Below are positions 3,019-64,000 of a stretch of 64,000 nt of DNA, piece by piece (within the stretch, counting starts at the first letter, position 1; each line of letters starts with the position of its first letter). The DNA lies in assembly GCF_029962835.1 (NCBI RefSeq), contig NC_080582.1, forward strand, positions 71,234,177 to 71,298,176. The letters are read 5' to 3'. The notes under the pieces were generated by a model. The model made no database searches. It was not told the DNA's origin and was given only the letters and a program-made list of their open reading frames with translations. The translations under genes and the position numbers were made by a program. The stretch is from Magnolia sinica. Its lineage: Eukaryota; Streptophyta; Magnoliopsida; Magnoliales; Magnoliaceae.

Positions 3019-3019
<1 letters not shown>

Positions 3020-3106
<87 letters not shown>
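3020..3106. repeat. (TA)n followed by (TG)n microsatellite
   Basis: About 50 bp of pure TA dinucleotides run directly into about 37 bp of TG dinucleotides, which abut the left end of MITE copy B. Confidence 0.97.
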
Positions 3107-3109
<3 letters not shown>

Positions 3110-3655
3110 AAAAGGTACCATGCGCTTCACCTCACGAATTCGTCCCATGAGGTCAAGCTGTGTGGGCACTATCGTGATGCATTTCGAACATCTACCCCAT
3201 CAGTCAAATGCACCATTCCATCGTGGGCCTAGGCCTCAAAAATCAAGTCAATCCGTGACTTGTGTGGGCCACACCACATACATAAGTGGAGAGGGGCCAT
3301 GCACCATTAAAACATTCATAACATTTTTTGGGCCCAGCGAGATGTGGTTTGTAAATCCAGCCCATCCATTATGTGTGTCCCACTTGGATGAGGGTTTAGA
3401 CCAAGTTTCAGATGCATGCAAATTTCAAGTGGGCCCTCACCAAGTGCTTTTATATGTTTTAACGGTGTCTTCACATGATTTTAGATGGTATGGCCCACCT
3501 GAGTTCCGTATACGGCTGATTTTTGGGATATCCCATAATTTAAAGGGGGCCCATCAAATGCACGGTGTTGATGGTCGACACGCATCACGGTGGGGCCCAC
3601 ATAGCTCGACCTCACAGGAGCTTATTGTGAGGTCGAGCGCATAGTACCTTTTCCC
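3107..3655 (+). mobile_element. MITE, copy B, bounded by microsatellites
   Basis: The left terminus GGGAAAAGGTACCATGCGC mirrors the right terminus gcgcatagtaccttttccc; the TIR continues for about 60 bp through 'acctca...gaggtc(a/g)agct'. It is 549 bp, non-coding and in the same orientation as copy A. The left flank is (TA)n(TG)n and the right flank is tatatatata, so a TA-type target site is likely but cannot be delimited inside the tract. The internal open frames are by-products of the repeat. Confidence 0.88.
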
Positions 3656-5171
3656 TATATATATATTAGCGGAAATTTGTTACTTCCAAAAGGGCCAAAA
3701 GATGAAGGAACATGGCGCTTAGATGAAGGGAAAACACAAATATCAACTTGATCCAAAAAGATTTCTGGGCCCATGAAGTTTTTAATAGCAAGCATTCAAT
3801 CATCATGTTTCATATGGTGTGGTCTACTTGAGATTTGGATCTATTTCATTTTTGGGATCATGCCCCTAAAATGAGTTGGCTAAATTGATGGATGGCATGG
3901 ATATACAACACACACATCAAACTACTCCAACGTCACCACTTGATTGAAAATGCTGTTACTTATCTTCTTGGAGGTGATTGCGGGATGAAACCAACTCTTT
4001 GTGCCTAGGGCGCACCATGACGTTTCTTAGAAATCCACATGGTCCATCTATTTTACCATATCTTGTTAGGAGGTGGTCCCGAAACAGGTGGGTATTTAAA
4101 AAAATACCCACCTGTTCAGTTGTTTCTTCGTATGATGTTATGGGGTAGTACTTGTAACAGGTGGGTATTTAAAAAAATACAATAAATGGGAGCCTCATGA
4201 TTATTTTAAGAGTAGAGGTACAACACTATTGGTTCAAGTAGTGTGGTCCATTTGAGCATTGTATTTGCCTCATATTCAGGCCCACAAGCCATTTATGCTG
4301 GACATAGTGGATTTCTCAAAAATATTATAGTGGGGCACTTCAATTTTTTGGGCTCCTCTATTCTAATTTGGAATTTAATAATATTTTTTCAAACTATGTG
4401 GCCCACTCGAGTTTTAGATCTTCATTATATTTGAATATGCCAATTAGAATGAGCGGGAGAAATTGATAGACACAGTGTTTTTCAAAAAGATAATGATAGC
4501 CCACAAAACAATGGGCGTGGCTTCAGTAGGTGTTCAATACTATTGTTGTAAGTTATGCGGCTCACTTAAGTGTTGGATGTACCTCATATTTAGGCCTATT
4601 CCCTAAAATGACATGAATAAAATAGTCAATCATAAGGATTTCTCAAAAACATCACAAGAAATATTTTCCAATATGGCACATGCATTCTTCAGCTCAAGGG
4701 CACTCATGCTACTCACAATGACCCAATATAATTTATTTTTGGTAAGTTAGAAAGCAAAATAAAAAGACTTATCAAAATAAGTTACTTTAATTTGGTTTTT
4801 AATTGAAAAAAATACTTAAATGCATGAGCATGTGCCGTCTCATTAATCCATGCATGTATGCTTGAATGGGTAAAATAAAAATCATAGACCAAAATATGAA
4901 AATTTATATTTGTCTTAACTTAAAAGTTGTACATCTATGTGTGAGGGCACTGGTGTGCACACAAACATGCAAATATTCTTCAATGCGTGTCCACCTAATC
5001 AAGCGTACTACTTGAATAAGTGCATGGTGACTCAGCTATTGTACAGTTAGCATTCATGTAAGTCAATCCAACCCATCCAAATTATAGCCCCAATAAGGAT
5101 GGAGGATATCAAGAAAAATTCACTCTAAGTCGATGATTATAACCAAGCAATTAGCAGCCGACAAATGGAAG
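3656..5171. other. Non-coding, fold-back repeat halves
   Basis: Halves of the regional fold-back family occur around 3,700-3,930 ('gatgaagggaaaacacaaatatcaacttg...') and 4,190-4,470. A direct repeat 'aacaggtgggtatttaaaaaaatac' lies near 4,084 and 4,156. No gene was seen. Confidence 0.5.
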
Positions 5172-19929: not shown

Positions 19930-20164
19930 GCTTGATAAGGACAGGAGCTTAAGGCCGTTAACGTTCAGATGGCCAAAGCGAAGATGCCACTTCTATGATT
20001 CATTATTGGCACGTCCATAAAGACACTTCTTGAGCCTTGTGTTTATATGGAGTGGGAACATTTGATTTTTCACCATTTGGACCCGTGCCACATGTCTACT
20101 ACATGCATCTTTTAATGACATAACTGAGTTCTCCATATGTATTACATTACCCCTTTTCAAGTAG

Positions 20165-31440: not shown

Positions 31441-32227
31441 CTTAGGGCCTGTTTGGGAGCCTGGAAGTTGGAATCAACTTTAATCTAAAAGTAGCTATGC
31501 ATGTACATTCACAGGGGTTTGAATTTAATTACTAAATCAACTTTAATATTTCTAATTAGTGAGGTATGTCATGTTAGAAACAATGGTTGTAATAAGCCTG
31601 CTGAAATATATGCTTCGCTCAAAATAATGAAATTCCAAGTCTTGGATGTGCCACAAGCACAAGGTCATGTTCGAGTGATTTACCAACAATTTTTAGCAGC
31701 TGATTTATATGGACAATGTTTGAATGGTGCTAATCATCATATTAAAGTAATTATATTGATGCAATTGATAATCTAGTTGTTTTTGGATATCATTAGTGGG
31801 TCATGTGCCCAACAGAATAATAGTACGGTGACGCACGTTACTCATACAACTATAGAAACGATTTCAGGTGTAATCCAAGCTCTAACAGCGGACTTCAAAC
31901 CCCCTCTCTGGAGTGATTTGAAACCAACTGTTGACAACCAAACAAGGGATTTAGAACCCCCTCAAATTCCCCTAAATCCATGGTGTAGCGAGTGAATCAG
32001 TACGCAGTCTGCTTCGGTGTCTCAACCCATATGTGGCTCCAGGGTGGCAGACGAGTCGCGCTCTACCCAGCTGGAGGCAATCCCATCCTATTGACTTTGG
32101 TTTACAGCTCAGCAATGCATTATTGAATGACCAAAAGCAAGAGATGGTGAGAACGTCAGCGAGGGCCGAGTTGAGGCCAAGTGATTGAAGTTTCTTGGGA
32201 GAAAGATAGAGAGAGAGAGAGGCTAAG
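31441..32227. other. Upstream region of the NLR gene; possible PIF/Harbinger-like remnant
   Basis: 31,447-31,462 reads gggcctgtttgggagc, a typical PIF/Harbinger or related terminus; an imperfect inverse (acaaccaaacaaggga) lies near 31,936-31,951. The 91-codon frame at 31,501-31,776 has no domain I recognise. No convincing TATA box for the NLR gene was found. A (GA)n run just before its ATG (about 32,208-32,221) is the likely 5' UTR. Confidence 0.4.
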
Positions 32228-34192
32228 ATGGCTGCTGAGGCTGTTGTTTCGTTCGCCGTAGGAAAAGTCAGCGATTTCCTGGTTCAACAGGCAGTTTCAC
32301 TCTATGAAGTGCGTGATCAGGTGGAGTGGATCGATAGAGAATTGAGGCGGATGCAGTGCTTCTTGAAAGATGCGGATGCAAAACAAGGCGGTGATGCAAG
32401 AGTCAAGAATTGGGTGGCAGATGTAAGAGACGTTGCTTACGATGCAGAAGACGTCATCGACACCTTCATCCTTAAAATACAACGACAAAGGAGAAGTGGG
32501 TTCGTTGGTTTCTTCAAAAGCTGCGTGTCCATCGATTTATTGGCTCGACGTGAGCTCCGGAATGAAATTGAACGGATAAAGAATAAAATCGGGGAGATCT
32601 CTGATAGTAGAGTGAGGTATGGCATTAAAGATGTGGGAGAAGGAAGTGGTTCCATGGGTGAAAGTTTACGAAGGCAAAGGCAAACTTGTCCTCTATTTGG
32701 AGAGACAGAAGTCGTCGGTTTTGATGAAGAAATAAAGACACTGGTGGCACGGTTGATAGATGGCGATTCACGACGTTGTGTGGTTTCTGTAGTTGGAATG
32801 GGTGGTCTCGGTAAGACCACTCTTGCAATTAAAGTGTATAACAATGAGGCTGTTAAGAAACATTTTGATTGTTGTGCTTGGGTTTTTGTATCTCAGCAAT
32901 ATGTGGTGAGAGATCTTTTGCATAGCCTTATAAAAGTCTTCATGATTCTTACTAAAGAAGAGCTTGAGATGGTGGAGAAAATGAATGATGTTCAGTTGAA
33001 GGAAAAGCTTTTTAATCATTTGAAGGAGAAGAGATTTCTTGTGGTGCTGGACGATAAATGGAATACTGAAGCATGGGATTCTTTAGTGGCTGCTTTTCCA
33101 GATATGAACAAGGGAAGTCGAGTCCTACTCACCACCCGCAACAGAGATGTAGCTTCATATGCAGATGCGCGGAGCTCTCCCCATGAGCTGCAGCTTTTAG
33201 GAGACGAAGACGGATGGAAATTATTTTGTAAGAAAACATTTTTAGAGCAGGGTATCCATTACCAGCAAAATTTAGAGAAGATCGGAGAAGAGATTGTGAA
33301 AAAATGTCATGGTTTGCCTCTTGCTATTGTTGTCATTGGGGGCTTATTGTCAAGGAAAGCGAAGGATCCAAACGAGTGGGGGAAAGTACTCCAGAGAATT
33401 AGCTCGCAATCCATTGATGATAAATATCAAATTGCAATCATATTAGCTTTAAGCTATGAAGATCTACCCTACCATCTGAAGCCATACTTTCTCTACTTCA
33501 GTGTTTTTCCAGAAGACTATGAGATCAGTGCTAAGAAATTGATTCATCTGTGGGTCGCAGAAGGATTTGTAGAGCCAATAGGGGGCGAAACGGTGGAGGA
33601 AGCTGCAGCAGATTGCCTTGAGGAACTGATCCGTAGAAGTCTGATTCAAGTAGTGAAAAGAAATTTCATTGGCAGAGTGAAAAGATGCCGTATCCATGAT
33701 CTCTTACTTGAACTCTCAATTTCAAAAGCCAAGGAAGATAAATTCCTCGATGTTCATCGTGGAGATACAAATCCTCTCTCTCCTTCGAAAGCACGCCGGC
33801 TTGCTATTCATCATGCCACTAGCAGGTGCACTTCTTTAAATCAAGCTAACCAATACCTTCGTTCTGTGTCGTGCTTTGCTTTCGAGGATGCATGGCTGGG
33901 GAAAAAGCAAGAGGAGTTTCTTTATAGAGGATTCAATTTGCTTAGGGTGTTGCATTTAGATGTATCTAGTACAGCATTGCGAAAGCTTCCGAACGCAATA
34001 GGTACACTGATCCACTTGAGATACCTTGGCTTCAGGATGAGTAAATTCACAAGAAGCCTCCCATCATCCCTAAGCAATCTTTGCGGTTTAGAAACACTGC
34101 ATGTAGAAGCAGGTCCAGTCAATATCTACATACCCAGTTGTATTTGGAAGATGCAACAATTAAGGCATGTGGATGTGGCCTTAGGATTATAA
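32228..34192 (+). CDS. CC-NB-ARC-LRR immune receptor (RPP13-like), N-terminal part up to a frameshift
   Basis: This is an intracellular NLR-type receptor, expected to sense pathogen effectors and trigger defence. The 654-residue frame starts at an ATG after a GA-rich leader. Domains in order: Rx-type coiled coil (about 1-150) with EDVIDTF at 74-80; P-loop GMGGLGKTT 190-198; RNBS-A FDCCAWVFVSQ 213-223; kinase-2 FLVVLDDKW 270-278; RNBS-B GSRVLLTTR 296-304; GLPLA 362-366; RNBS-D FLYFSVFPEDYEI 421-433; MHD-equivalent IHDLL 489-493; first LRRs from about 565. Kinase-2 has K where VLDDVW is usual, and MHD reads IHD, a known variant. The frame stops at 34,190-34,192 in mid-LRR while the homologous sequence continues in frame +1, so the gene is broken or encodes a short form. 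Confidence 0.95.
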   Translation: MAAEAVVSFAVGKVSDFLVQQAVSLYEVRDQVEWIDRELRRMQCFLKDADAKQGGDARVKNWVADVRDVAYDAEDVIDTFILKIQRQRRSGFVGFFKSCVSIDLLARRELRNEIERIKNKIGEISDSRVRYGIKDVGEGSGSMGESLRRQRQTCPLFGETEVVGFDEEIKTLVARLIDGDSRRCVVSVVGMGGLGKTTLAIKVYNNEAVKKHFDCCAWVFVSQQYVVRDLLHSLIKVFMILTKEELEMVEKMNDVQLKEKLFNHLKEKRFLVVLDDKWNTEAWDSLVAAFPDMNKGSRVLLTTRNRDVASYADARSSPHELQLLGDEDGWKLFCKKTFLEQGIHYQQNLEKIGEEIVKKCHGLPLAIVVIGGLLSRKAKDPNEWGKVLQRISSQSIDDKYQIAIILALSYEDLPYHLKPYFLYFSVFPEDYEISAKKLIHLWVAEGFVEPIGGETVEEAAADCLEELIRRSLIQVVKRNFIGRVKRCRIHDLLLELSISKAKEDKFLDVHRGDTNPLSPSKARRLAIHHATSRCTSLNQANQYLRSVSCFAFEDAWLGKKQEEFLYRGFNLLRVLHLDVSSTALRKLPNAIGTLIHLRYLGFRMSKFTRSLPSSLSNLCGLETLHVEAGPVNIYIPSCIWKMQQLRHVDVALGL

Positions 34193-34198
34193 AAAGTA

Positions 34199-34947
34199 AC
34201 GGTTTCAGGTCTAAAAGAATAGTCGGGCGTCCATCACTCGGACTTGATTGTTTACTTAATCTCCAGACTCTAAAAGGTGTGGAGGCTGGCGATTGGATAG
34301 AGGATTGGTTAGGAAAGCTAACTAATCTCAAGAAACTACTAATTTGGGGGATCTTCTGGAGTAGGCATGCGAAGGGATTGTCCAGCTCTCTTCCCAAATT
34401 GGACCGCCTCCAGTCTTTACAGTTGCATTGGGAGGATACCATTCCAGTGTTTATGCCTTTTTCACATCACCTGCATATGAAGAAGATGTTTTTGAGGGGA
34501 AAGTTAGAAAAGCTACCCGAGTCGTATGAATTCTCACCCAACCTCACTAAGCTTACCTTGAAATTGTCCAAGTTAATGGAAGACCCGATGGCAACATTAG
34601 AGAAACTACCAAACCTTCGGATTCTCATATTGCTTAGGGCTTCATACGGGGGAAAGGAAATGGTGTGCTCTTCACAAGGGTTTCCTCAACTCGAATCCTT
34701 ACATGATGAAGAGTTTCATGAATTAGAAGAATGGATAATAGAGGAAGGAGCGATGCCGAGGCTTTTACATTTGCTGGTTTGGGTATGCTCTCATTTAAAG
34801 ATGATTCCAGAAGGACTGCAACATGTGACTACCCTCAAGAAATTGGATGTGCGTTACATGCCCAATGAATTCAAAGACAGAATGCAGGAAAACGGCGGAG
34901 AGGATTGGCGTAAGATTCAACACATACCCTCCATCGAAATAAAATAA
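34199..34947 (+). pseudogene. C-terminal LRR part of the same NLR gene, displaced by a frameshift
   Basis: In the next frame the LRR continues with CLLNLQTLKGVEAGDWIEDW, LTNLKKLLI, LPNLRILIL and ELEEWIIEEGAMPRL. It ends MPNEFKDRMQ...IQHIPSIEIK, the usual C-terminus of RPP13-like CNLs. The whole receptor would be about 905 residues, normal for the family. The shift lies between about 34,175 and 34,225. I found no GT-AG intron there that obviously repairs it, and most CNLs of this class are intronless. A sequencing or assembly error is the main alternative. Confidence 0.88.
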
Positions 34948-50286: not shown

Positions 50287-50500
50287 CACTGCACCAAAAT
50301 TGGTCGTTAGGACTTTAATGGTTTAGGAACACTTTTCGACCACGGTAAAGTATGGCGTCGCAAAAAATTAGGAACGGTTGAAAACTGTTTCTGATATACG
50401 GTGTCGCAAAAAATTAGGGACGGTTGAAAACCGTTTCTGACAGCCGCATCGAAAAAAATTAGGGACGGTTGAAAACCGTCGCAAATTTTGTAACAGTATT
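50287..50500. mobile_element. CACTA-type terminus with three subterminal hairpin repeats
   Basis: A CACTGCACCAAAA end at 50,287 is followed by three ~46-bp units (tcg at 50,358, 50,404 and 50,449). Each unit carries aaaattaggRacggttgaaaaccg, which folds as gacggtttt-caaccgtc. Such arrays next to CACT(A/G) ends are characteristic of plant CACTA (En/Spm-like) elements. The matching opposite end was not found in the window; the Athila insertion at 57,326 may separate it. Confidence 0.6.
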
Positions 50501-50668
50501 TTTTCTTATTTCAAATTTCAAATTCTTTTTTTTTCAATTTTTAGACCCCAAATAAGGAAATGACAATTACACTAACCATGAGAGTGAAACATAAATAAGA
50601 ACAACATATAACAACATTAAATTATCAAGTACAACTAATAAAACAAAAGGAGAGAGTAAAAGATATGC

Positions 50669-50896
50669 CTGAATGACACCATGGTCCCTATGATCATGAC
50701 CCCAAAGGGAGAAATTCCTGAAATGTGAGAAGAAGAAATTGGTATAAGACAAGGTTTCTCCTGCTTGGAGACCATATTCTTTTCATTGAGAAGCTGTATT
50801 TTTTTTCAGATCCTTTTTCAACTGCCAGTAATCAACAAATGTGTCTTTCCATTCAGGAACAAGCTGTCCTTCAAACTGCTTTGAGAACTTAACCAT
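50669..50896 (-). pseudogene. PHO1-like exon 1 (SPX domain start)
   Basis: PHO1 proteins export phosphate to the xylem and begin with an inositol-polyphosphate-sensing SPX domain. From the ATG at 50,896 the minus strand reads [20 protein letters not shown], then [12 protein letters not shown], very close to the family. A run of eight A then shifts the frame (KIQLLNEK continues in the next). A second shift leads to FSLWGHDHRDHGVIQ, corresponding to the family's SLFGH..R(D/E)HG(P/A)IQ. The exon ends at a GC-type donor (CAG|GCATAT). With two frameshifts and no later exons it cannot make PHO1. Confidence 0.88.
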
Positions 50897-51596
50897 ATTT
50901 CAATCTCTCTGTTTATATAGATCACAGGTTGGGAAAGGAATGCCCACCTGGTGAGAATTGAACTCACTAAACAAAAGGGATCATGTTTAGCTTCAACGTC
51001 TAACATATGAACAAAGCAAAAGGAAACAGAGAATTCAACTCACCAAGAAAAGGATTCCCCATTCTGAGAGAATTTCAACATCTATGATGTTTCTAATCAG
51101 GCCAAACTGGTTTAGTACAACACCAAAAAAGAAACGCAATATCTGCAACCAAGTGGGGGATCTCAATTATCATTGTAATAGAATGAGAGTGAAATCAATA
51201 GGACACATCAAGCTCCTTAGTTCGCTGATAAACCATCTAAGGTTACGTTTTTTTTTTTGCAAATGATTCAGAGTAACAGAGAAAAAAAACTAAAATATTA
51301 GGAGTATAAGTATTGCTTACAACTGTGGAAATACTCAAGTTTTTCTTTAATCTTAGCCCCTTGTATGTCTCAAAATGCTCTTATAAACAACTTCCACATG
51401 GCTCATTTGGTTACACTAGATATAATGAAATTTCATGATCAATCTAAGGGTGTGTTTGGAAGCACCAAAGTTCATGAAATATTATGATATTCTACAACAG
51501 GTTAGGTTGACTAATCATGTAATAACCATCAAATTTCATGATATCTAGTGCAATCCAGCAACTTTCAGAAAATTCAACAAGATGAAGCAGCAATAC

Positions 51597-51659
51597 CTTG
51601 TTTGTACTAAGACATTGAACTATGTTCTCATGTTCAAACTGAATTAGAAGAGCAATCCC
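51597..51659 (-). pseudogene. MEKK-type MAP kinase kinase kinase exon
   Basis: The 21-residue exon GIALLIQFEHENIVQ...STNK lies between TTTCAG and GTATTG. It corresponds to the alpha-C/beta-4 region of plant MEKK1-like kinases (EIALLSQFEHENIVQY.GTDK). The normal E before IALL, which forms the conserved Lys-Glu pair in kinases, is replaced by G at the exon edge. No other exon of this kinase was found nearby. Confidence 0.75.
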
Positions 51660-52064
51660 CTGAAACAAGGTACTTGTCTGTACTTTGTCTACACGTGATA
51701 TGCTACTTCCTCCAATAGACAAGAATATCATGGAAAAAAAACATAAAAAATACAAGCAGGCCCATGCATCCACCACCTAGAATGAGAAGGTGGGGATGAA
51801 AATGTGTGGCCTATGTTTTATTTTCCCCTCTTCTTTTTCTGTTTTCTTTCTGTGTCCTTGTTTTTTTTTTTTTTTTTTTTAGAGCTTATGCTCTTCATTT
51901 TGGTAGCTTCTTTCCCTTTTTAATAAAATTACTTGTCTTTCAAGAAAAGATAAAAATAAAAATAAAAGATATTGAAGCAAAATGAAAGGGGGGGGGGGGG
52001 GGGGAAAGAGAAAAGATAGCCGAATATATTGTGAAGGAAATATTAAACAATCCATTCCCCTTAC

Positions 52065-52142
52065 CTCTGTTCTCTTCAAAACATAATCAATCAACTCTTC
52101 CATGTCTGCAAGTACATGGATGGATTTTGACATACTTGAGAT
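52065..52142 (-). pseudogene. Unidentified captured exon, 26 codons
   Basis: The 78-bp open segment lies between an acceptor TTTTGTAG and a donor GTAAGG. It encodes ISSMSKSIHVLADMEELIDY followed by VLKRTE. Length is a multiple of three, splice sites are good and the sequence looks like real protein, but I do not recognise the source gene. Position and strand match the other captured exons. Confidence 0.55.
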
Positions 52143-52741
52143 CTACAAAAGAATAAACTTGCATATATTGGATTCAAAATAAGATAATATAGTCATTGTT
52201 TTTGGAGTTGTGGGACAAATGTTGGGTGCTTGAGGAACATGTTCTAGGATAAGTGTAGCTAAAATGAGAATCTTGTGTGGATGAGTGGCGAGACGGGAAA
52301 GGATAGAATTAATGGATGCATTTGAGGGAGCTTGGGAGATAGGAAACAAAATGAGGGATAAGTAGAATTAGTTTGGTCATATGCAACAGACTCTATTATC
52401 TAGTTACACCTTTCAACAAACAGTTATCTTCAAACTGAGCATGCTTAAATGAGAGACAGAATTTTTAGAACTAAAATGACAAATGACAGGATATGATATG
52501 CTATATAAAGTTACAAACAATGTCATAGAGATGAATTCTCCATATAGACTAAAATTAGATAATTAGGAATGTTGTTTTACAATATGAAATTTTTATACAA
52601 ACTATCTAAATGGCTTTATATAATCTGGGATCTCTGGATTCCTAATAGGGCTATCAATTATTATAGATTTGACATCATAGACCTGAACAAAATTGAAAGA
52701 AAAGAAAGAAAATACAAAGTTAATCTACTAAAAATGGTAAC

Positions 52742-52825
52742 CTTGGTTTGGAGGTAAGCATGTTCCGGTAAATTTGGCTTCAAAACATCTAATAAGAAGG
52801 TTATTGCCTCTTGCATCATGTTCCT
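52742..52825 (-). pseudogene. Clathrin heavy chain exon
   Basis: Twenty-eight codons between CATTGCAG and GTTACC encode [20 protein letters not shown] followed by EHAYLQTK. This matches the strongly conserved clathrin heavy chain segment (R)[25 protein letters not shown], with changes at a few positions. Clathrin heavy chain is the triskelion coat protein of about 1,700 residues. Only this exon is present. Confidence 0.88.
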
Positions 52826-53054
52826 CTGCAATGGAACACCAAAAGATCAGGTCTCAAATCAAAACAACATATCAAAATGAACATTTGCAACCAAACATGC
52901 ATGTTTAAGCAAGCATAAATAAAATATTCAAGCACAAAAAATCATGCACAAATGCACAATTTCTGACTTTGCAACTCCAAATGGTTGATCAAACAAGGCA
53001 ATTTTTTTTAATCAATAACATCAAAGACAAGAAAAGGGAATATAGTAGTCAAAC

Positions 53055-53124
53055 CTGAAGGAAGAGATCTATGGTAGTGTTGTACAAGCCCCATATGTAC
53101 AAGCCTCATTATCACCGATGCTTC
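53055..53124 (-). pseudogene. Putative unidentified exon
   Basis: Seventy bases between TTACATAG and GTTTGA read EASVIMRLVHMGLVQHYHRS followed by LPS. I do not recognise it. It is supported only by position, open frame and splice-like borders. Confidence 0.3.
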
Positions 53125-53390
53125 CTATGTAAATAAGGTATTTAACAAAAGCTAATGAGAAAAGATCAAATACAACTTGCATGACCTGAAATGACTGATA
53201 GATGGAAGATGCATGCAGAAAATACATAAACCATTTCCAATCCAAATGATGGGAAAAAGATAGAGCCGCCACCAAAAATACATAAACAATTTCAGAAAAT
53301 GGAATTGTCTAATGGGATATTATTTAGATGATGCTTCCAAGATTTGTAAGTCAAATAAATAAGAAATTTGTATAAACAACATTCAATTAC

Positions 53391-53500
53391 CTCAATTGCA
53401 GAACCAATCATCTGAATAAGATGGTCAAATACACTAGTCCCTTCAGCTTCAAACAATTTGCAATGAAGAAGACATTTGTATATAGTGGACTGGCACAACT
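53391..53500 (-). pseudogene. Myosin XI tail (dilute domain) exon
   Basis: The minus strand encodes [20 protein letters not shown] then [13 protein letters not shown] before the donor GTAATTG. Plant class XI myosins have (T/S)[31 protein letters not shown] here, in the globular tail that binds vesicle cargo. Changes such as W to C, R to G and R to H at normally conserved places suggest decay. The next expected exon (DNNDHMAYWLSN-type) is absent. Confidence 0.85.
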
Positions 53501-53668
53501 GAATGTTGTACACCGTTTGGCCCCGAGCATTGTATAATACATTGTACAATAAACACTAAAAAAAAGGAGAGTAAGAACTTGGACCACTGAAACAATAAGG
53601 GTAAAGTATCTAAGGAGTAGAAGTTTGCAGGTTGCAGGAGACTGTAAAAGCCACATGGTATTTATTAC

Positions 53669-53791
53669 CTGGTCCCAGCCCAGAGGAGTAAGGTGCGCAT
53701 CAAAAAGTGCATGTGATAAGTAGGCATCATGATTCTTTTCGCCTTCTACATTGTGAATCCCATTTAAATTGCAGATGGCAAAAACCACAAG
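53669..53791 (-). pseudogene. Phosphoglycerate-mutase-like (histidine phosphatase) exon, active site lost
   Basis: The 41-codon exon between TTTACCAG and GTAATA encodes NGIHNVEGEKNHDAYLSHAL then FDAHLTPLGWDQ. Plant PGM-like proteins read LVRHAQGIHNVAGEKDHDAYLS...FDA.LTPLGWQQ. The upstream half is replaced by VVFAICNL, so the catalytic R-H motif is missing; the encoded piece could not be an active phosphatase. Confidence 0.85.
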
Positions 53792-53939
53792 CTGGTAAAG
53801 TAAAAAATAAATTATCACTACAAAAAAGGGGGATACATTATTTTAATACAAGGCAATCAAAGCAGGTTCAGTACAAGGTTACAATCCAAGCATCAAACAT
53901 AAAGCACATTAAGCACAAAAGGATTAAAAAATACAACAC

Positions 53940-54200
53940 GCACCTTATGTTCAGATAGTTCCTGTGGGTCCTGGGACAACCCTAATATCAAATTGTGTTG
54001 GACCAGGGTCATATCTGCATATCTGATTTGCCTAGATCAGACCCAGTTGCACCCCTAGAGAATCAATGGGTTGGGTTGATCCCATGACCCACAGACCTGG
54101 TCCAACTCATACCCAGATATGGGTCCAATGAATAATCCAGTTGGGATCAGGTCCCTGTTTACAGCTCCAGCAGATAATCATATAGTCTTCTAAAGCACAA
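53940..54200. other. Low-complexity spacer within the fragment array
   Basis: Repeats of 'gggtc..atat..ggac' and 'catgacccacagacctggtcc' type; no exon recognised. Confidence 0.35.
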
Positions 54201-54253
54201 TGCAGGATATTTTTGAAGAGAGAGTTTGAATCAGATAAGAGTGCCCCTACCAA

Positions 54254-54560
54254 TTATTTGGCTGATGAATTGCGTTGCAATGATTGAAGCCAGCTACTTG
54301 AAGATCCAACAGTATTGCCTGCTCCTAGACCATTGTGTACAGCTTCAGTTTGCAACACTGGTTTTGTGCTTATGGCATTTCTCCTGGACACACCCAAAGG
54401 AGCAAATGAGGTAGATGGCATGTGATATCAGAAGATTGTCAGCACCCAAATTTTTATTGATTGCTAATTTAAATTGCATTTGAACTCTGGTGCGAGCAGC
54501 ATTACTCAATCCCATTCGATCTGCAACCTCGGCTGAATGAGAAACACCATTTCCCCCTGA
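54254..54560 (-). pseudogene. Unidentified captured coding fragment with a stop codon
   Basis: On the minus strand a coherent reading STSFAPLGVSRRNAISTKPV, then LQTEAVHNGL, ends SSSSWLQSLQRNSSAK and a TAA at 54,256-54,254. Upstream, in another frame, GNGVSHSAEVADRMGLSNAA is also protein-like. It looks like a terminal exon plus a preceding one of a host gene I cannot name. Confidence 0.45.
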
Positions 54561-54803
54561 GATCGGACAGGCAACCAGAATCGTAAGAGTTATGGTCAAA
54601 ACAAAGATTACAAACCAAAAAAGTTATGCCCTATATAATATGAATGCTAATAACTACATATTTCCTCAATATTCCAGACATTGAGTCAGCATTAACATAA
54701 ATTTGCAAGTAAATTGTGTAAATCAAAAGAAGTCAGTAAGTTAAAATAACAGATTCCACAAGTACAGCAATTTCAATAGGATTCCACAAGGTGCAGGTGT
54801 GTG

Positions 54804-54825
54804 TGTATATATATATATATATATA
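54804..54825. repeat. Short (TG)n(TA)n microsatellite
   Basis: tgtgtgtgtatatatatatatatata next to the last GSK3 exon. Confidence 0.9.
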
Positions 54826-54855
54826 AAACCTCGTAAGTCTTGGCTACAGTCTGAC

Positions 54856-54996
54856 CTGGCCAAGAAGCACTTCAGCAAGAACACAACCAGCTGACCATAC
54901 ATCAATTGACGTAGTATATTCGGTTGCTCCAAATATAAGCTCTGGAGCCCGGTAGTAGCGAGAGCATATGTATGATATGTTTGCTTCTCCCTTGAC
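54856..54996 (-). pseudogene. GSK3/SHAGGY-like kinase exon (activation loop to alpha-F)
   Basis: The 47 codons between AACAG and GTCAGA, all open, include [20 protein letters not shown] and [20 protein letters not shown]. They contain the activating tyrosine in [12 protein letters not shown], the APE motif and DVWSAGC of plant GSK3 kinases (brassinosteroid and stress signalling). Conservation is essentially perfect. Exons for the rest of the C-lobe (PLFPGE... onward) are not present. Confidence 0.92.
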
Positions 54997-55175
54997 CTGT
55001 TATAATAATTAAAAACACAGATTTAAGAGCCAAAATCGAGAAACAAATATGACTAAAAGTCTAAAATGATATGTTCGCTTTCCCCTTGTGATGATATGCA
55101 GAACTTGATATATTCCCACTGGTCAGGTATTAAGCATGAAAGTACACCATAAAAAGCAAAAAGGTGTGCATGTAC

Positions 55176-55232
55176 CAGAATTTTTGCACTTCCAAAATCA
55201 CAAAGCTTGACCTGGTGGGTGAGAGGATCCAC
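55176..55232 (-). pseudogene. GSK3/SHAGGY-like kinase exon (DFG)
   Basis: Nineteen codons VDPLTHQVKLCDFGSAKIL between TGTGCAG and GTACAT. Contains the magnesium-binding DFG. In phase with the neighbouring exons. Confidence 0.92.
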
Positions 55233-55321
55233 CTGCACAAAAATTCACCAAGTAAGATAAACAGTTGTAGTTCCCAAACAGAACAAATTCAGTAAACATC
55301 CCTAATAAAGAAAACACATAC

Positions 55322-55396
55322 AAGAATATTTTGAGGCTTCACATCCCTATGACAAACCTCAGGTAAACTGTGAATAAAAGCTAGGCCCCTAAAAAT
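55322..55396 (-). pseudogene. GSK3/SHAGGY-like kinase exon (catalytic loop)
   Basis: Twenty-five codons between TCTCCAG and GTATGT, including [14 protein letters not shown] and [11 protein letters not shown]. The catalytic HRDVKPQN is intact. Confidence 0.92.
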
Positions 55397-55423
55397 CTGG
55401 AGAACAACACCAAGTCAAAAAAA

Positions 55424-55464
55424 AAAAAAAAAAAGAAAGAAAGAAAGAAAGAAAGAAAGAAGAA

Positions 55465-55497
<33 letters not shown>

Positions 55498-55520
55498 AGA
55501 AAGAAAAGAAAAGAAAAGAG
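55424..55520. repeat. (GAAA)n / poly(A) microsatellite in a GSK3 intron
   Basis: An A run followed by many gaaag units and aagaaaag variants. Confidence 0.95.
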
Positions 55521-55573
55521 AACAGATAATTAAACGGGCACAGAACCTATTAAATGCAAGAAGGATCTCATAC

Positions 55574-55594
55574 TTGATATGTATAAAGTTGTAC
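55574..55594 (-). pseudogene. GSK3/SHAGGY-like 21-nt micro-exon
   Basis: VQLYTYQ between a T-rich tract ending TCTAAATCAG and the donor GTATGAG. It corresponds to the family's (Y)VKLYTYQ that directly precedes IFRGLA(Y/F)IH. Upstream N-lobe exons (glycine loop, lysine) were not found up to 57,230. Confidence 0.7.
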
Positions 55595-55619
55595 CTGATT
55601 TAGAATAAAAGAAAAAAAA

Positions 55620-57233
55620 AAAAAATCAGTCTATATCTGTTAGGTTATTTAGAATTCATAGTGAATCATACAAATTGTAAATCCAACAGATCAACTTTAG
55701 TAGGCAAGTTCAAGACAAATTCACCAGAAATCTCACCTAACAGCACCTAAATGATAAACAAGACTATATCACAGGTGGCAAGGAAGACTTCCTAATTGTG
55801 CACTTTGCAGCAATGCACTCCATAAGAAATCGAATAAATGAAAACTTGTAAATGGTATAAACTATCAGGAACTAAAATAAAGCAGTGATGAGACCAATCT
55901 ATTTCTGTCACTGTGAGTGCCCTGTGTTGAGCCTACAGCACTGGGATCGAGAAGAGCTCATGTATATATGTGTGATTCTTGCTATGTACCTAATAAACAG
56001 TTGGAATTCTTCAAGTGAGCACATGTATATATCATATTAGTAGCCCATTGACACCCTACCCTTGTCACTTGTGGGGATTCTCCATGCTTTGGAAAAAAAA
56101 AAGTGCCAAAAAAATATTTCACACCAATTACACTGAATTCAAATTAAAATTAAAAAAAAATAAATTCAAAACATAAGAAAAATAACTTTTCATTTACCAT
56201 CTATTTCATGTGGAGCCTGTGCAATCACACATGCAGTATGGTGCTTACAAGATGCAAGCTTTCCATCAATTACCATCACGTAAAAATAATACAGTTTGCC
56301 GCAACCACCACTCTAACACCGAAGAGAGGCAAGAAAAGTAGCCAACCACTTCTACCAAAATCCAAACCCAGCTCTCCTTCTTAATGGAAACGAATCCAAA
56401 CCAGCATAACACTCACCCCCAAATTACAATTAACCTTCGGGACAAGCAAGTTTTGAATTTATAAATTTTTAGCTTCTCCCTTTAGTCTTTTCCATTTGAA
56501 GGAAGACAGTTGCTACCATTCTTACAAGTATTTCTGCAAGTCCCTGATCACAGGCTTTAGATTGTGTCAACAAAGAGAAATTTAGTATAAGGCCCCTCCC
56601 ACAACCAGGGCCATCAGAGATTCACGTGCTATTTGAACTCACTTAAAAGAGAGGTCTCCTATCCCACCTAAATACCTCCACTCAATGTTGAATACAATTT
56701 CTTCTCATGGGCTTGCCATGAAATTCTTTACCTCATGCTACACTTTGCAGCTCTTTCTTAATAGAAGACATGCATGCCCCATAAGAAGTCTTATTATTAA
56801 GTGCCACAAGGCAATTCCAATGTATCCACCATGTTGGAAGTTATCATCACTAGTTTCTAACACATTTACATGTAAACAAGTTAAATGCGTTTAGGTGGTA
56901 TGATTGCTTTGCCCATCATACATGTTAGGTCAAGGATCAGTTACAAGACATCAGCAACAGTTCCAAAGCATTTCAGCAGTATGATTGCTTCAGTCATCAT
57001 ACATGTTAGGTCAAGGATCAGTTACAAGAAATCAGCAAAAGTTTCAAAGCATTTCAGCTCGTCAGTTTTTTTTTAATCAATCTGCACAGAACCATTGCTT
57101 CCTGAATTCATGAGCAACACACCACCAACTGATCTAGTTTCTTCCTCTCTCTTTTTTTAATCATTGAGACAATCTGAAAATTCTTGCCAAGTTTTAAGTT
57201 ATATATATTGTAAAGTTCAAAAGGAGAACTTAC
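55620..57233. other. Intron-like or spacer sequence in the fragment array
   Basis: AT-rich. No further exon was recognised on either strand. It contains the 81-bp duplication at 56,898-57,058. Confidence 0.45.
56898..57058. repeat. 81-bp tandem duplication
   Basis: Units start gtatgattgctt at 56,898 and 56,979. About 90% identical by eye (gcccatcat/agtcatcat, gacatcagcaac/gaaatcagcaaa). Confidence 0.9.
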
Positions 57234-57320
57234 CACAGGATCCATTTCATATTCAATTGGCTCTAAAATGAAATCTTCGTCTTGGATTACTCCATTCACC
57301 ATCAATTTTCCATCACGGAC
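57234..57320 (-). pseudogene. Plastid type I signal peptidase (PLSP1-like) exon
   Basis: The 29-codon exon VRDGKLMVNGVIQDEDFILE then PIEYEMDPV is followed by donor GTAAGT. Plastidic/thylakoidal signal peptidases read V(E)VRDGKL.VNGV.Q.E.FILEP..YEM.PV...VPEGYVFVLGDNRNNS. The next exon, with the conserved GDNRNNS box, was not found. An Athila-like LTR starts 5 bp beyond the exon edge (57,326); the TAG acceptor lies in those 5 bases, which would also be the LTR's TSD. Confidence 0.82.
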
Positions 57321-57325
57321 CTATC

Positions 57326-59431
57326 TATTGAGGGTCAAATATTGCATATTAGACCCTATTTATTACTTAGTTTTACATACATGATAATGCTTAATGCTCT
57401 ATTTTAATCATGCTTGTGTTGCAGGGTGAATTTAGGAACTTGGACTAAAAGAGTACTAAAAGCATGGATTTGATGCTCAAGAATCACCAAGGCAAGGGAC
57501 GGATCTTAAGGGACCAAGATTGAAGAATTCACACGCCAAAGATCTAAGAAAATCAAGTGATTGACGATAAAGAGGCCTGAAAATCGCCCCGAATGCAATA
57601 TCATAGGGTTCCCGCCATCCGTTTGGCTCGAAACTTTATAAGAGGCATGAAGACCCTAAATTAACCGTACATGTCGAAATTCAACCCTTAGATCATTGTG
57701 GAAGTGGCCCAACGGAGAGATCAGCCACAAAACCACCGATTTGGGGCCCACCTGACACCTGGATATGCTTCAATTTTGGTCTCAACCCCTTAAATTGGAT
57801 GGCAGAGCGGATGAACGGAGTAGATTTATCAGAAACATCGCAGTGGTCCACACAGGGGGACTTGCGAGTGCATAGCCGATGCACTCTCACATCAAATCGG
57901 ACCGGGCAGACCGGTCAAAGGGTCCTTGACCCGACCGATTTCTTTCCAAGAAGTAGCGTCCGCACGCTGTCTCGCCAGGGAAGTGTAGTGGGCCACCATC
58001 ATGGTCCCGATGGACGATCGGGACCATCCATTTGATCCAAGGGAGGGGGGGCTGACCATACCCATGTTGATTTCTTGGTCCCATGCACGTGTACACACGT
58101 AGATCGCCGTAAAACGCAGGATGAACGGCGGGAAGATTCGATCCTTTGGGCCACACCAAACTCAACCAAAACCACCCCTTTCCGACCGAAATTTCGCCAG
58201 GAATCCAATGGACGGGGGTGGATTTCTCCGAAAACATCACTGTGGGGCCAACCGATCATCGCAGCGAATCCACGTGCGCATGGTTCACGTCCGGGAAATC
58301 CAGAAATTCCCGGCGGTTGTAGCCCACTGTCTGTGATGGGATCAGTAATCTGGACTGTTTAGACGACACACCAGGGGGCCACGACCATAGCCATGATGCC
58401 AGATTTCCGAGCTGAGGCGTTCAGCGTCCCAAAAACTCATCCAAATGCAAGGAGTTTGCGTTTCTCTGTTGCGTAATGTGCGTAAAAGCTATGCACGCTG
58501 CTGTGCGTAAACAACACTCCCACCGACTCCAGCCATTGCACCGACCCACTCCAGCTATAAAAAGAGAAAGAAAGGGACGTGAGAAGGCATCTTTGGATGT
58601 GGAGCGCACGAGCAAGAAGCATGGACGGCTGGCGCATCCATCTTCCTTCCTCTTTGGTTTCATTGCTTTGTTTATATTTTTCCTTTAAGAGCTTAGTTTC
58701 ATCATGATGATGATGGGCTAAAGGGCTAAGAGGTGAAGCTTGTAGCGTGATGGGGTGTTTTCTACGGCTTTAATTCATGTTTATTGAACTCTCTTTGATT
58801 ATAGTTTGATTATATGGAATATTCATAGTTTTTAATGGTTTGTTGTGGCTTAAATTACAATGGATCTGCGATAGCTTTGAGTATTTTCTATGCATGTATA
58901 GAGGTTGTGAGCGTAGGACCCCTGTTGTTCACCATCGTCTTATGGACATGGTTGGATGATGAAACTCTTCCTAACATTCATAACTCTCAGATTGGTTGTG
59001 GATTAGTTAAATTTTGTTGTTTACTTTGTCTCATGGGCATGGTTTTGCGATGGAATCAATTCTAATTCTCATACCTATCATTCATTAAAAACTAGATCAA
59101 AGGAAGTTCAGATGTGAATTTTAATGAATTACCTTCCAATTGGATGAAGATAGGACTCTAAATCTAGTTGTGTTCTTGAATCAAGCGTAGATCTCCCTGA
59201 TCTCTACAAGTGGATCCTTGGAAACCCTAGTTTCCCACCTTTGAATTTTACAAGTTTTAGTTTCATAATTCATCATTATTCTCTTACTTTCTCCTGATTT
59301 AGATTAAATCTTATTCTACTTCTAGTTCGAGTTACTTTCAGATTGCGTACAAGGTTCAGTCCCTGTGGATTCGACCTCGGTCTTACCAAGATTATTACTA
59401 CATCACAACCCTATACTTGGGGTGGTGAACA
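57326..59431 (+). repeat. 5' LTR of the Athila-like element
   Basis: It begins TATTGAGGGTCAAATATTGC (TG decayed to TA) and ends ggtggtgaaca just before the PBS. About 2.1 kb, non-coding. The late part 'tggattcgacctcggtctta...atcacaaccctatacttgggg' is the conserved 3' region of Athila LTRs. 57,700-58,350 contains 'gtgggccaccatcatggtcccg' fold-back-type sequence, probably an earlier insertion into the LTR. Confidence 0.8.
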
Positions 59432-59437
59432 AGTTTT

Positions 59438-59455
59438 TGGCACCGTTGCCAGGGA
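59438..59455 (+). other. Primer-binding site, tRNA-Asp type
   Basis: TGGCACCGTTGCCAGGGA differs at two positions from TGGCGCCGTTGCCGGGGA, the usual plant Athila/Tat PBS. Confidence 0.8.
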
Positions 59456-59990
59456 TTGACGGTTGCGTTTTTTTGAGATTAATTAGTTTTGGAATTAGGT
59501 TAAGATTAGGGTTTTTCTAATTTTAGGTTTTTCTGTTTTTAGAAACTAACTTAACTTTCCTGTTTTGTAGGACCCTGATATAGACTTTCTAAATTGGTAA
59601 TCTCTTTCTAATTTTCTAATTTTTTAATTTTTCTATCTTCTATTTTTAGATTAGGTTTTATTTTCTATTTTTAGAAACATTCTAATTCTAGGGTTTCTTT
59701 TAATTTTAAAAACTAACTTTTTTTTTATATATTTTTAATTTTAGAACTTTCCTAAGTTATTTTATTTTTTTTAGAAACTTTCTATTTTTAGACACTTTCC
59801 TTTTTTAGAAACTAGTTTACTTTCTATTTTTAAAAACTGACTTGTTTTGTTTTGTTTTGCAGGTTTTTAACTTAGGAACTTCTGATTTGGTAACCTCTTT
59901 TCAATTCTTCTTTTTCTTTATTTCTAGATTTCTATTTCTCTTCTTCTTTAAGTTTAGGTTAGAATCTGAGATTGAGGGCTGCGAGTGTTT
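59456..59990. other. T-rich leader of the Athila-like element
   Basis: Repeated 'ttctatttttaga(aa)ct' phrases; no coding frame. Confidence 0.6.
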
Positions 59991-59991
59991 C

Positions 59992-60980
59992 ATGCCCAAG
60001 TGGGTCCGTGATAACACTCGACGTCTCTTGACTGAAGGAGGATTGGTTGAGGGGTTAACTATCCATCGCAGGAGTAGACATCGCTTGAGATCTCCAAAGT
60101 TAATTGAAGTTATGGCCACAAATCAATTGGCCAATCAACCAGAAGGACAACCTCAACCTTGGGTTGGGGAAGTCCAGGATGAGAATGAGGTGCATTAAGT
60201 ACCCCCGCCTCATACTTTACGAGATTATTTACAATTGGCAGGGGTGAGTACGCCCTCATGCATGATTTTTCCAGAGAATACGGGACACATGGATATCAAG
60301 CCAGGGGTGATCCAACTCCTTCCAAAATTTCATGGGCTTGAGTCAGAAAATCCATATTTACATCTGAAAGAGTTTGATGAGATCATAGCCACACTATACT
60401 TTCCTAATGTGTCTAATGACACGGTCAGGCTGAAACTCTTTCCCTTTTCTTTGAAAGAGAAAGCTAAGACGTGGTTACATTCACTACGTCCTCGATCTAT
60501 TGGTAGATGGAATGACATGACAAGGGAGTTCATAAAGAAAATTTTCCCATACCATAAGATGAACACCCTTAGAAAGTCGATCATAAACTTTGCCCAAAGA
60601 GAAGATGAAACATTCTTCCAATGTTGGGAGCGGTTCAAAGATCTTGTCAGTTTATGCCCATAGCACGGTTTTGAAATGTGGCTCATCACGAACTTTTTCT
60701 ATGATGGACTGACTTCTCCCATGCGCCAATTAGTTGAGAGGATGTGTAATGGGGAGTTTAAGAATAAAGGTGTCGATGAGGTGTGGGACTACTTTGATAA
60801 GCTTGCTGAAAACACACAATCATGGGACATCTCCCCCAAACCAAGCACCATGTCTAGGCCGACTCAATCAAAGGAGGGGTGAAATGTATTTCCTGAAAGA
60901 GGACGATGATATCGGTGCTAAAGTGGCTAATCTCACCAGAAAACTCGAGGCCATGGAATTAAAGAAGGATAAGGCTAAGT
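59992..60980 (+). pseudogene. Athila-like gag, broken
   Basis: Frame 1 carries HTLRDYLQLAGVSTPS, then GVIQLLPKFHGLESENPYLH, then RLKLFPFSLKEKAKTWLHSL and CWERFKDLVSLCP, the typical Athila capsid region. In-frame stops fall at 60,196-60,198 and 60,661-60,663. After about 60,850 the sequence continues in frame 2 (EDDDIGAKVANLTRKLEAME). A normal gag would be one uninterrupted frame of about 600 residues or more. Confidence 0.88.
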
Positions 60981-61869
60981 AAACTGTTTGCGGTATTTAT
61001 GCTTGCAACATTCACACAACTGAAAACTGTCCAACAATACCTGCCTTTCAAGAGGTGTTGAATGAGCAATCCAATGCCGTGAACAATTACCAAAGACCTT
61101 TCAATGGACCTACCTCCAATACATTAAATCCTGGTTGGAGAAATCATCCAAACTTCAGTTGGAGGAATGGACAAACTGCTAGCCCTCAAGGTTTCTTCAA
61201 TCAAATTCCACATTAAGAGAAACCTCAAGAGGACCCGGTTCTAAAACATCTTCAAAAGCAAGAATTTTTCAATCAGAGTATGCTACAAGCCTTTCAAGAC
61301 CTCACAAAAGCCATACAAGGACTTGATACTAAAAGTGCAATTGGGAATAAGGGGAGCCTTCCAGCTCAAACTCTTCCCAATCCAAACCCACAATATGAAG
61401 TTAGCGACTCGAGCTCTTCAAATTAAATGGAGCAAGCTAAATCTATCACCACTCTTAGGAGTGGGAAGACCATTGACAAAACTACTTCGATTAGGGCTGA
61501 AAAGCCTATGGAACCAGAAGAGGACAATAAGGATGGATCTAGCCATCCCCACAAGAATTAGAACCGAAACCTCAAGGGAAGCCGGTTGCTCCATTTCACC
61601 AATGGTTGGTGGCACCAAAACCTCTCTCTAACTCTCAGGACATTCTAGAGGTGTTGAAACAGGTGAAGGTCAATATTCCTCTACTTGATGCCGTAAAACA
61701 AATATCTTCATATGCCAAATTTCTGAAAGACTTGTATACGACCAAAAGACGGCAAAATATGCAAAAGAAAGTCTTCTTAACTGAGAAAGTGAGTGTCATC
61801 CTAAAGCAAAATGTGCCACAGAAATTCAAAGATCCCGGTAGCATAACCGTTACTTGTGTAATTGGGAAT

Positions 61870-62330
61870 TAACGCATTGAGCACGCACTTCTTGGTTTAG
61901 GAGCTAGCGTAAATCTGATTCCTTACTCGGTCTACAAACAGTTAGGTTTGGGTGAATTAAAACCCACCTTAACCACACTACAACTTGCTGATCGCTCTGT
62001 TTGTGTACCGAGAGGGATAATTGAGGATGTGTTGGTCTAGGTTGACAGATTCTACTACCTTGTAAATTTTATAGTCCTGGATATCGAACTCATCAGTAAC
62101 ATGAGCACTTAAATTCCCGCCATTCTTGGTTGCCCATTCCTTGCCACTTCAAACGCAATCATCAATTCTAGGAATGGTGTCATGAGCATGTCCTTCGGGA
62201 ATATGACATTGGAGTTAAACATCTTTTTCAACACGAGTAGACGGTTAGAGGATGATGCGGATTTCCACGACATTAACATAATTGACTCTTTTGTGGAAGA
62301 TAGAACGCCTCTGACCCTCTAGACACGTGC
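61870..62330 (+). pseudogene. Athila-like aspartic protease region with a mutated active site
   Basis: The frame gives HALLGLGASVNLIPYSVYKQ and later PAILGCPFLATSNAIINSRN. The family active-site box reads LLDLGASVN; here the catalytic Asp is Gly (GGT). There are several stops. Confidence 0.8.
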
Positions 62331-62360
62331 CTGGCCCACTCCTATGATTTTGATGATGAC

Positions 62361-63477
62361 ATGATTAAGGAGATGGTTGTCATGCTTGATACTGTGCCGG
62401 TACTTAAAGTTAACCGGTGGAGGCCACAATTTGAAGAATTGTCCCAAACCGAAGAAGTGCCTCTGCCATCTAACCTCAAGGCACCGAAGCTTGACCTAAA
62501 ACCTTTGCCATCTGATTTGAAATATGTTTATTTAGGTCAAGATAAGACATACCCGGTGGTGATTTCATCCCACCTTGAGCAAGAACAGGAGAGTCTCATA
62601 TCTACTCTCATTGAGCATAAGGGAGCCCTTAGATAGACGATTGCGGACCTCAAGGGAATTGACCATTCGATTTGTACTCACCGCATTTATCTTGAGGATA
62701 ATGCGAAGACCTCTCAGCAATCACAACGTAGACTAAATCCAAACATGAAGGAAGTGGTTAAAGCCGAGGTTCTTAAACTATTAAATGTGGGTATCATATA
62801 CCCTATATCCGATAGTCAATGGGTGAGTCCAACTCAGGTGGTTCCTAAGAAGTCCGAAATCACCATCGTAGCTAATGCCAATAATGAACTTGTGCCAACT
62901 AGAGTTACTACTGGTTGGAGAATGTGCATTGACTACAGGAAGTTGAATACCGTCACGAGGAAGGACCACTTTCCTTTGCCCTTTATTGATCAAATTTTGG
63001 AAAGGCTAGTTGGTCATTCCTATTATTGTTTCCTTGATGGGCATGATGAGTATTTTTTCTGATATGGTGGGGCAATATCTAGAGGTCTTCATGGACGATT
63101 TCTCTGTTTTCGGTCCATCTTTCAGCGAGTGCTTAGAGAGTCTTATATGTGCCCTGAAAAGATGTGAAGAAAAGAATTTGGTACTCAATTGGGAGAAGTG
63201 TCATTTCATGGTTCGTAAGGGAATTATCCTTAGATATATCATCTCCTCCAAAGGAATCGAGGTAGATAAGGCTAAAATTGATCTTATCTCTAACCTACCT
63301 CCACCCAAGAACATACAAGACATGCGATCCTTCTTAGAACATGTCAGTTTTTACAGACGATTCATAAAGGACTTTAGTCTCCTATCTCGTCCTTTATGTA
63401 ATCTACTTCAAAAGGATGCACCATACAAGTGGACTAAGCAATGTTATGAGCTTTTACTAAGCTTAAGGGCATGTTGA
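62361..63477 (+). pseudogene. Athila-like reverse transcriptase, with an internal deletion
   Basis: Segments: VLKLLNVGIIYPISDSQWVS-type start (about 62,770), WRMCIDYRKLNTVTRKDHFP (about 62,917), then CFLDG at about 63,030. Next comes, in another frame, MMSIFSDMVGQYLEVFMDDF (63,040-63,100) with the catalytic FMDD. The block normally lying between FLDG and the M-SIFSDM stretch, which includes the MPFGLCNAP motif, is missing. This is a deletion of roughly 130-150 bp that also shifts the frame. Confidence 0.85.
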
Positions 63478-63527
63478 CCACTGCACCTATCATGTAGCCA
63501 CCCGACTAAAGCCTTCCTTTTGAACTT

Positions 63528-63953
63528 ATGTGCGACGGGTCTGACTATGCCCTTAGGGCGATTTTAGGCCAGAGAAAAGAAAAAAAGCCCTACGTTATCC
63601 ATTACGCAAGTAGAACTCTAAATCCTGCCCAAGTGAACTACTCAACTACGGAAAAGGAACTCTTGGCCGTAGTGTTTGCTTTGGACAAATTTAGGTCCTA
63701 CTTGATTGGATCCAAGATCGTCGTTTACACAGATTATGCGGTGCTCAAGTATCTTCTTTCTAAGAATGATGCTAAGCCCCGCCTGCTAACATGGATCCTC
63801 CTACTCCAGGAATTTGATTTAAAAATAAAAGATAAAAAGGGAGTAAAGAACGTAGTGGCTGACCATCTTTCTCACCTTGATCTCCCTAATTCCCCAAAGA
63901 CGACACATATCAATGACATATTCCCTGACGAACAACTGTTCAAAATCTCCTAG
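63528..63953 (+). pseudogene. Athila-like RNase H
   Basis: Open for 141 codons: [53 protein letters not shown] and VADHLSHL. The usual CDASDYAVGAVLGQR box has a few changes; the first carboxylate D is retained. This is the longest intact domain of the element. Preceded by a stop and a frameshift after 63,477. Confidence 0.88.
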
Positions 63954-64000
63954 TCACCTTGGTTTGCTGATATTGCTAATTATCTTACCACAGGTTTCAC

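Follow-up and report, generated by a model that had tools for sequence, protein, structure and literature searches.

Gene capture by CACTA transposons has been described in soybean, maize and wheat. The soybean element Tgm-Express1 holds pieces of five genes in 5.7 kb, in a mutant allele with demonstrated chimeric transcripts (PMC1947982); maize Pack-CACTAs carry several loci per element and hold the largest number of distinct loci; and for CACTA elements of wheat chromosome 3B, 140 capture events involving 145 genes were recorded, with expression data (PMC4290129). Here we describe an array of gene pieces in Magnolia sinica that lies partly in our window (the whole 64,000-nucleotide stretch that was analysed, C10:71234177-71298176) and partly beyond its edge. 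We read this array as a Pack-CACTA, an ageing CACTA transposon that is both degenerate and non-autonomous and has cargo pieces from at least ten host genes, and give this reading a probability of about 0.85. Multi-gene elements of this kind are already known; what is notable here is the presence of ten named genes together with a fixed polarity.

Composition of the array

A preliminary description, made from the sequence alone, had placed exon pieces of seven named genes on the minus strand of 50287-57320, and all seven are present. The collage as then described was incomplete, however: a long terminal repeat (LTR) retrotransposon starting at 57326 had been missed, as had the pieces beyond it, where the collage runs on for ~3.6 kb and adds at least three more genes (ARMC6-like, ARF and histone H2B). 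Without later insertions, the array measures ~10.5 kb. Its features are given below; positions above 64000 continue the same scale through the adjoining 30 kb (L009-L011; C10 coordinate = window position + 71234176), and contigs and loci are designated by C and L numbers, respectively.

50287..50500, plus strand: CACTA-type left end, with the terminal inverted repeat (TIR) CACTGCACCAAAATTGG and three subterminal repeats of type GGGACGGTTGAAAACCGT; similar end at L015 and L019
50558..50917, minus strand: PHO1 first-exon block, ATG at ~50896 (Pfam, PDB, genome copies)
51552..51669, minus strand: MAP3K/MEKK exon (51597-51659) and flanking intron (relative in the same genome, L050)
52685..53084, minus strand: clathrin heavy chain, exon 52742-52825 with introns and the end of the exon before it (nearest relative L048, C8)
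53279..53486, minus strand: myosin XI piece, cut within an exon (PDB; L042, L043)
53543..53761, minus strand: PGM-like piece, cut within an exon at 53761 (relative L041, C11)
54707..55590, minus strand: GSK3/shaggy-like kinase, three complete exons at 54856-54996, 55173-55232 and 55319-55396 (PDB; relative L040, C3)
56615..57325, minus strand: Plsp1 (plastid signal peptidase) exon 57234-57320 and intron (relatives L030, L052)
57321..57325: target site duplication (TSD) CTATC of the LTR element; second copy after the 3' LTR, at C10:71305533
57326..64000 in the window and on to C10:71305532 (71356), plus strand: nested LTR retrotransposon, gypsy-like by reading
Past the LTR insertion, up to C10:71305672: resumed Plsp1 piece
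C10:71305668-71306786 (71492-72610): ARMC6-like piece (relative L047)
C10:71306782-71308611 (72606-74435): ARF piece (relative L057)
C10:71308631-~71308866 (from 74455): 5' part of histone H2B (relative L056)
C10:71308883-71309105 (74707-74929): repeat resembling a miniature inverted-repeat transposable element
C10:71309107-71309179 (74931-75003): CACTA right subterminal stretch

The collage interval seems to stop at 57325 because the LTR element (57326-71356), which has CTATC on both flanks, inserted there and split it. Aligned to each other, the two LTRs are identical at 1693 of 1784 bases and, judged by uninterrupted copies at other loci, the Plsp1 intron continues directly after the insertion. 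A second element terminus near 57326 was ruled out, this boundary being the LTR insertion with its 5-base duplication.

Identity of the pieces and their genomic relatives

Several pieces were identified directly by database matches: the PHO1 block (Pfam SPX, E 7.9e-13; PHO1;H1 in PDB, E 5.3e-15), the three joined GSK3 exons (PDB, E 8.5e-43), the myosin XI piece (PDB Myosin-17, E 4.5e-8) and the ARF piece (PDB ARF1, E 3.1e-16). The clathrin exon by itself gave weak matches (Pfam 0.018, PDB 0.39), and its nearest relative on C8 carries adjacent clathrin exons, as judged by eye. Bare MAP3K/MEKK, PGM-like and Plsp1 exons yielded no useful PDB match and no Pfam match; we assigned these names by reading, and they are backed by the genomic relatives. 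For instance, L050 has another MAP3K exon besides the one shared with the array, and the pair together matches PDB MAP3K5 at E 1.1e-12, while reading by eye found the entire PGM-like exon in L041, the next Plsp1 exon in both L030 and L052, and an upstream GSK3 exon in L040. The ARMC6-like piece, so named provisionally, has weak armadillo-repeat support in Pfam. The bare H2B piece had no Pfam match, and the reading frame of its relative L056 matches H2B at E 6.7e-60. The ARF relative, L057, appears partly decayed and is perhaps not the actual donor.

Pieces and relatives are 87-97% identical over aligned bases with gaps excluded (83-96% with gaps counted), in comparisons that include flanking intron and cover 90 to 1,830 window bases; chance resemblance is thereby excluded. 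The parent-gene search proposed in the preliminary description thus found relatives that match into the intron flanks, and the nearest of them lie on contigs C2, C3, C4, C5, C8 and C11. Several further stretches of the array, to which we give no gene name, match other loci.

At least 27 other places share part of the Plsp1 piece (56615-57325), mostly at 82-95% (40 of 75 candidates scored), and since some of these carry the next true Plsp1 exon, Plsp1 fragments are widely spread. Three local copies of a GSK3 piece lie within ~71 kb at C15:75.67-75.74 Mb (L039), and the one that was read is cut within an exon.

Wherever an exon edge could be placed by reading, the acceptor AG is kept (8/8 sites: MAP3K, clathrin, three GSK3, Plsp1 and two ARMC6 exons), as is the donor GT (9/9 sites: these exons except the second of the ARMC6 pair, with myosin and PGM added). 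Splice signals are therefore retained where assessed, as the preliminary description had stated. Reading also revealed frameshifts in the PHO1 piece (one base, in the exon) and the ARF piece. Relative to their nearest relatives, ten exons carry 19 synonymous and 29 non-synonymous codon changes, a pattern without any hint of coding constraint. No transposase was found when 50500-57325 and C10:71305533-71308176 were scanned on both strands with Pfam, a scan that ends before the last kilobase and detects short pieces poorly. Like Pack-CACTAs, the array carries host-gene cargo together with introns and, as far as scanned, no transposase of its own.

Joints shared with sibling loci

We searched the 1.84-Gb assembly (127 contigs) for further copies; except in the PHO1 and myosin searches, 40 of 75 to 2798 candidates were scored, and the copy counts are lower bounds. 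Many loci carry the same end sequence or the same joints as the array. The stretch 50924-53109 is also present at C2:72.06-72.07 Mb, where it is itself interrupted. The joint between the PGM-like piece and the next stretch (53761) recurs at C14:28.999 Mb and in at least six short copies, with a seventh sharing it partly; those at 54709 and 55590 recur at C3:111.31 Mb and C14:28.99 Mb; the Plsp1-ARMC6 joint at C13:37.49 Mb and C5:79.137 Mb; and the ARF-H2B joint at two places on C17. Matches at ten or more places span the ARMC6-ARF joint (best 40 of 146 candidates).

As the same joints occur at loci diverged by ~3-16%, most of them are not assembly errors. That the array is a product of misassembly, or consists of fragments of separate real genes, is hardly credible: besides the joints at diverged loci, the related genes elsewhere have a longer exon context that is absent from the collage, and apart from three joints seen only here (see below) we found nothing in favour of an error.

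Sibling copies are frequently without some stretches or have added ones; L033 and L038, for example, have ~0.5 kb extra at 54430 and lack 54799-55246. The copies at C3:111.31 and C3:111.42 Mb do not count as independent, their fetched edges being 97-98% alike beyond both ends of the shared block.

In a search that scored 26 of 26 candidates, no other place joins the myosin piece to this array; the piece otherwise matches three loci, two of which read as myosin XI exons (L042, L043). With so few other matches and with its attachment confined to this array, it looks like a later capture, and such uniqueness is what stepwise gain predicts.

Two side observations concern the same region. Between the myosin and PGM pieces, a ~47-base stretch (53499-53545) matches 16 other places. 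A block of ~324 bases over the PGM joint (53614-53938) occurs with nearly equal edges at six or more places. The one copy that was read, at L036, is surrounded by unrelated sequence and looks like a part of the collage that was captured anew; this copy stands beside a CACTA-like motif, and we dropped it as a candidate capture intermediate because the same-edged block is found at six places.

CACTA termini

The search with the PHO1 piece (6/6 candidates scored) returned the piece itself, four near copies (C6, C14, C16 and C2) and a distant match on C5 which, at 76%, may be the donor. L015 (C6) and L019 (C16) likewise have a left end resembling CACTGCACCAAAA, together with subterminal motifs, ahead of the PHO1 piece, and in L015 the CACTA TIR is ~1.7 kb from that piece. 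Array homology begins at 50486 in L017 (C14) and at 50543 in L021 (C2), and in these two of the four near copies no TIR was found beside the PHO1 piece. On the opposite side, right ends follow the H2B block and the right subterminal repeat, namely ATTTTGGTGCAG in L053 and L054 and GATTTTAGTGTAGTG in L058. The right TIR is present in L058 and worn in L053 and L054; these two loci, which look identical in the stretch compared, may represent one duplication. The family end sequences are CACTGCACC/CACTACACC.

Recurrent joints, together with CACTA sequence flanking both sides of the array, support a single element carrying all the pieces, as the preliminary description had inferred. Its view of a CACTA-type transposon that captured genomic fragments is likewise supported by the CACTA end beside PHO1 at two loci and the right ends beside the H2B block. 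The second terminus that it sought beyond 57326 was found in part: the right subterminal stretch extends to C10:71309179, and the right TIR is absent from the window copy, which is therefore presumably immobile.

Two other element types were considered. Pack-MULEs have long TIRs, about 100 bases or more, with a 9-bp TSD; the left and right ends here share just a 13-base TIR match and short subterminal motifs (right end of L053 against 50301-50289), which does not fit a Pack-MULE. It is very improbable that the array is Helitron cargo adjoining a CACTA end by chance. Helitrons have 5' TC and 3' CTRR ends with a 3' hairpin; the array edges carry CACTA sequence at several loci. Stepwise capture of several genes has been described for maize Helitrons (PMC3288121), but at two other loci the PHO1 block again occurs with a CACTA end (no systematic Helitron scan was made), and at L053, L054 and L058 the H2B block occurs with CACTA right ends.

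Some observations weigh against the array being one CACTA element. In the window copy, right homology halts at 75003, roughly the last 30-35 bases, TIR included, being gone. No copy was found that has both TIRs and the 3-bp TSD of Pack-CACTAs, and most sibling loci were read without both ends being found; on C1, no convincing left end lies within 5.6 kb, one motif with three mismatches having been dismissed. Further, while most joints have counterparts elsewhere, three were seen only here: PHO1-50924 (among the best 40 of 385 candidates), the entry into myosin from the left, and myosin-PGM. Finally, just one joint shows clear microhomology.

Polarity of the cargo

All ten named genes have one orientation, sense toward the left-type CACTA end (10/10; sign test, 0.002). 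As a control, most of the array was scanned with Pfam on both strands; SPX and kinase pieces were recovered, each on the minus strand, and the plus strand gave only two hits, both weak (see below). The polarity was then tested on other cargo by scanning both strands of 4.5-4.9 kb at each of seven sibling loci. New pieces above the curated cut-off were NOT1 and API5 in L015, ribophorin II in L027 and cytochrome b5 in L017, and all four point to the left-type end, or to its side by block order; the end in L027 was classed as left-type by similarity. These four pieces likely belong to one element with their loci, whose far ends were not found. No further gene piece came to light in L019 or L026, nor in L038, where the scan matched just the known kinase piece. 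In total, 14/14 recognised pieces point toward the left-type end, a count in which recognition depends on exons and the pieces are possibly non-independent.

Weaker hits were discounted: in the window, AP3D1 and AAA_11 (both plus), which were far below the curated Pfam cut-off, and Atrophin-1 (plus) and DUF7501 (minus) in L021 and DUF3915 (minus) in L027, which were below it. If real, four of the five (all except DUF7501) would contradict the polarity.

Mechanism of capture

The pieces were most likely gained stepwise as genomic DNA; their introns are kept, which argues against capture from spliced RNA. Capture probably took place while the element was being repaired internally, with other gene loci as the copied templates and template switching at short homologies. 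Template switching would suit both the piece edges, which fall in exons and introns alike, and the ARMC6-ARF joint, where both relatives have the 5-base GGAGG. Mobile copies, presumably mobilised in trans, would then have spread, lost parts and had parts recaptured, generating a network of loci with some joints in common.

An alternative is that pieces were gained by the fusing of neighbouring CACTA insertions, whose inner ends are lost so that the host DNA between them becomes cargo. This is the Pack-CACTA model of Catoni et al. as described in a review (PMC13317346), which gives it as the mechanism for Pack-CACTA; local same-orientation insertions have also been reported for Pack-TYPE hAT and PIF elements, and fusion could account for a first capture beside an end. 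We nonetheless regard it as distinctly unlikely for the array as a whole. Fusion would be expected to leave CACTA subterminal remnants between pieces or to draw on linked donors. From 50600 to 74650, however, no terminus match was better than E 0.18 (a match at 74655-74690 reflects the H2B leader carried on the query), so that a convincing remnant is lacking, and the closest relatives are spread over six or more contigs. Polarity toward one CACTA end is a testable clue here, since fusion by itself does not predict it. The same review allows that DNA transposons may have an undiscovered capture mechanism.

Because all pieces are sense toward the left-type end, a transcript entering from the right-type end would meet successive spliceable exons. 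We put forward, as an unlikely but conceivable extension, that a strand rule governs which host fragments this CACTA family captures or keeps, with exons accumulating only in sense toward one end, behind the captured H2B 5' leader, in a growing spliceable exon-shuffling transcription unit, and that capture is biased by the direction of transcription. Such a rule might operate through co-directional template switching, or perhaps with nascent RNA as the copied template, and the H2B leader would possibly bring its core promoter. The H2B block extends ~110 bases upstream of the ATG; a shared TATA box could not be established.

Genomic neighbourhood

Two reading frames resembling NLR resistance genes, alike by eye and both with frame breaks, lie on the plus strand (window 32210-34947 and L010 ~1767-4372), one on each side of the collage, which places the element in an NLR neighbourhood. 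Copia-type retrotransposon reading frames were recognised by eye on the minus strand at 17297-19992 of the window.

Comparison with known systems

Among the literature matches listed there was no magnoliid CACTA gene-capture element, and matches for multi-gene or sense-oriented Pack-CACTA cargo were mostly irrelevant; neither result implies absence from print. The family offers a natural series: its sibling loci overlap in cargo, one capture, with edges defined to the base, was seen at no other place, and captured ends are numerous. If transcribed, the array would be a ready-made exon-shuffling cassette.

In the portions available, descriptions of related systems show both likenesses and differences. 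Like maize Helitrons (PMC3288121), the family has several gene fragments per element and related elements with overlapping subsets, but termini and transposition mechanism differ, the ends here being CACTA. Like the CACTA families of wheat chromosome 3B (PMC4290129), it carries and exchanges captured genes, some of them chimeric; in contrast to that survey, one multi-gene array is dissected here. The maize Pack-CACTA accounts, as far as available, report no fixed cargo polarity, whereas this array is polar; at its internal joints no CACTA remnant was seen. With Tgm-Express1 the array shares CACTA-type end sequence and several unrelated host fragments that retain introns and canonical splice sites, and would be usable as exons of one transcript; it differs in holding pieces of at least ten genes, in being a degenerate copy and in being known from DNA alone.

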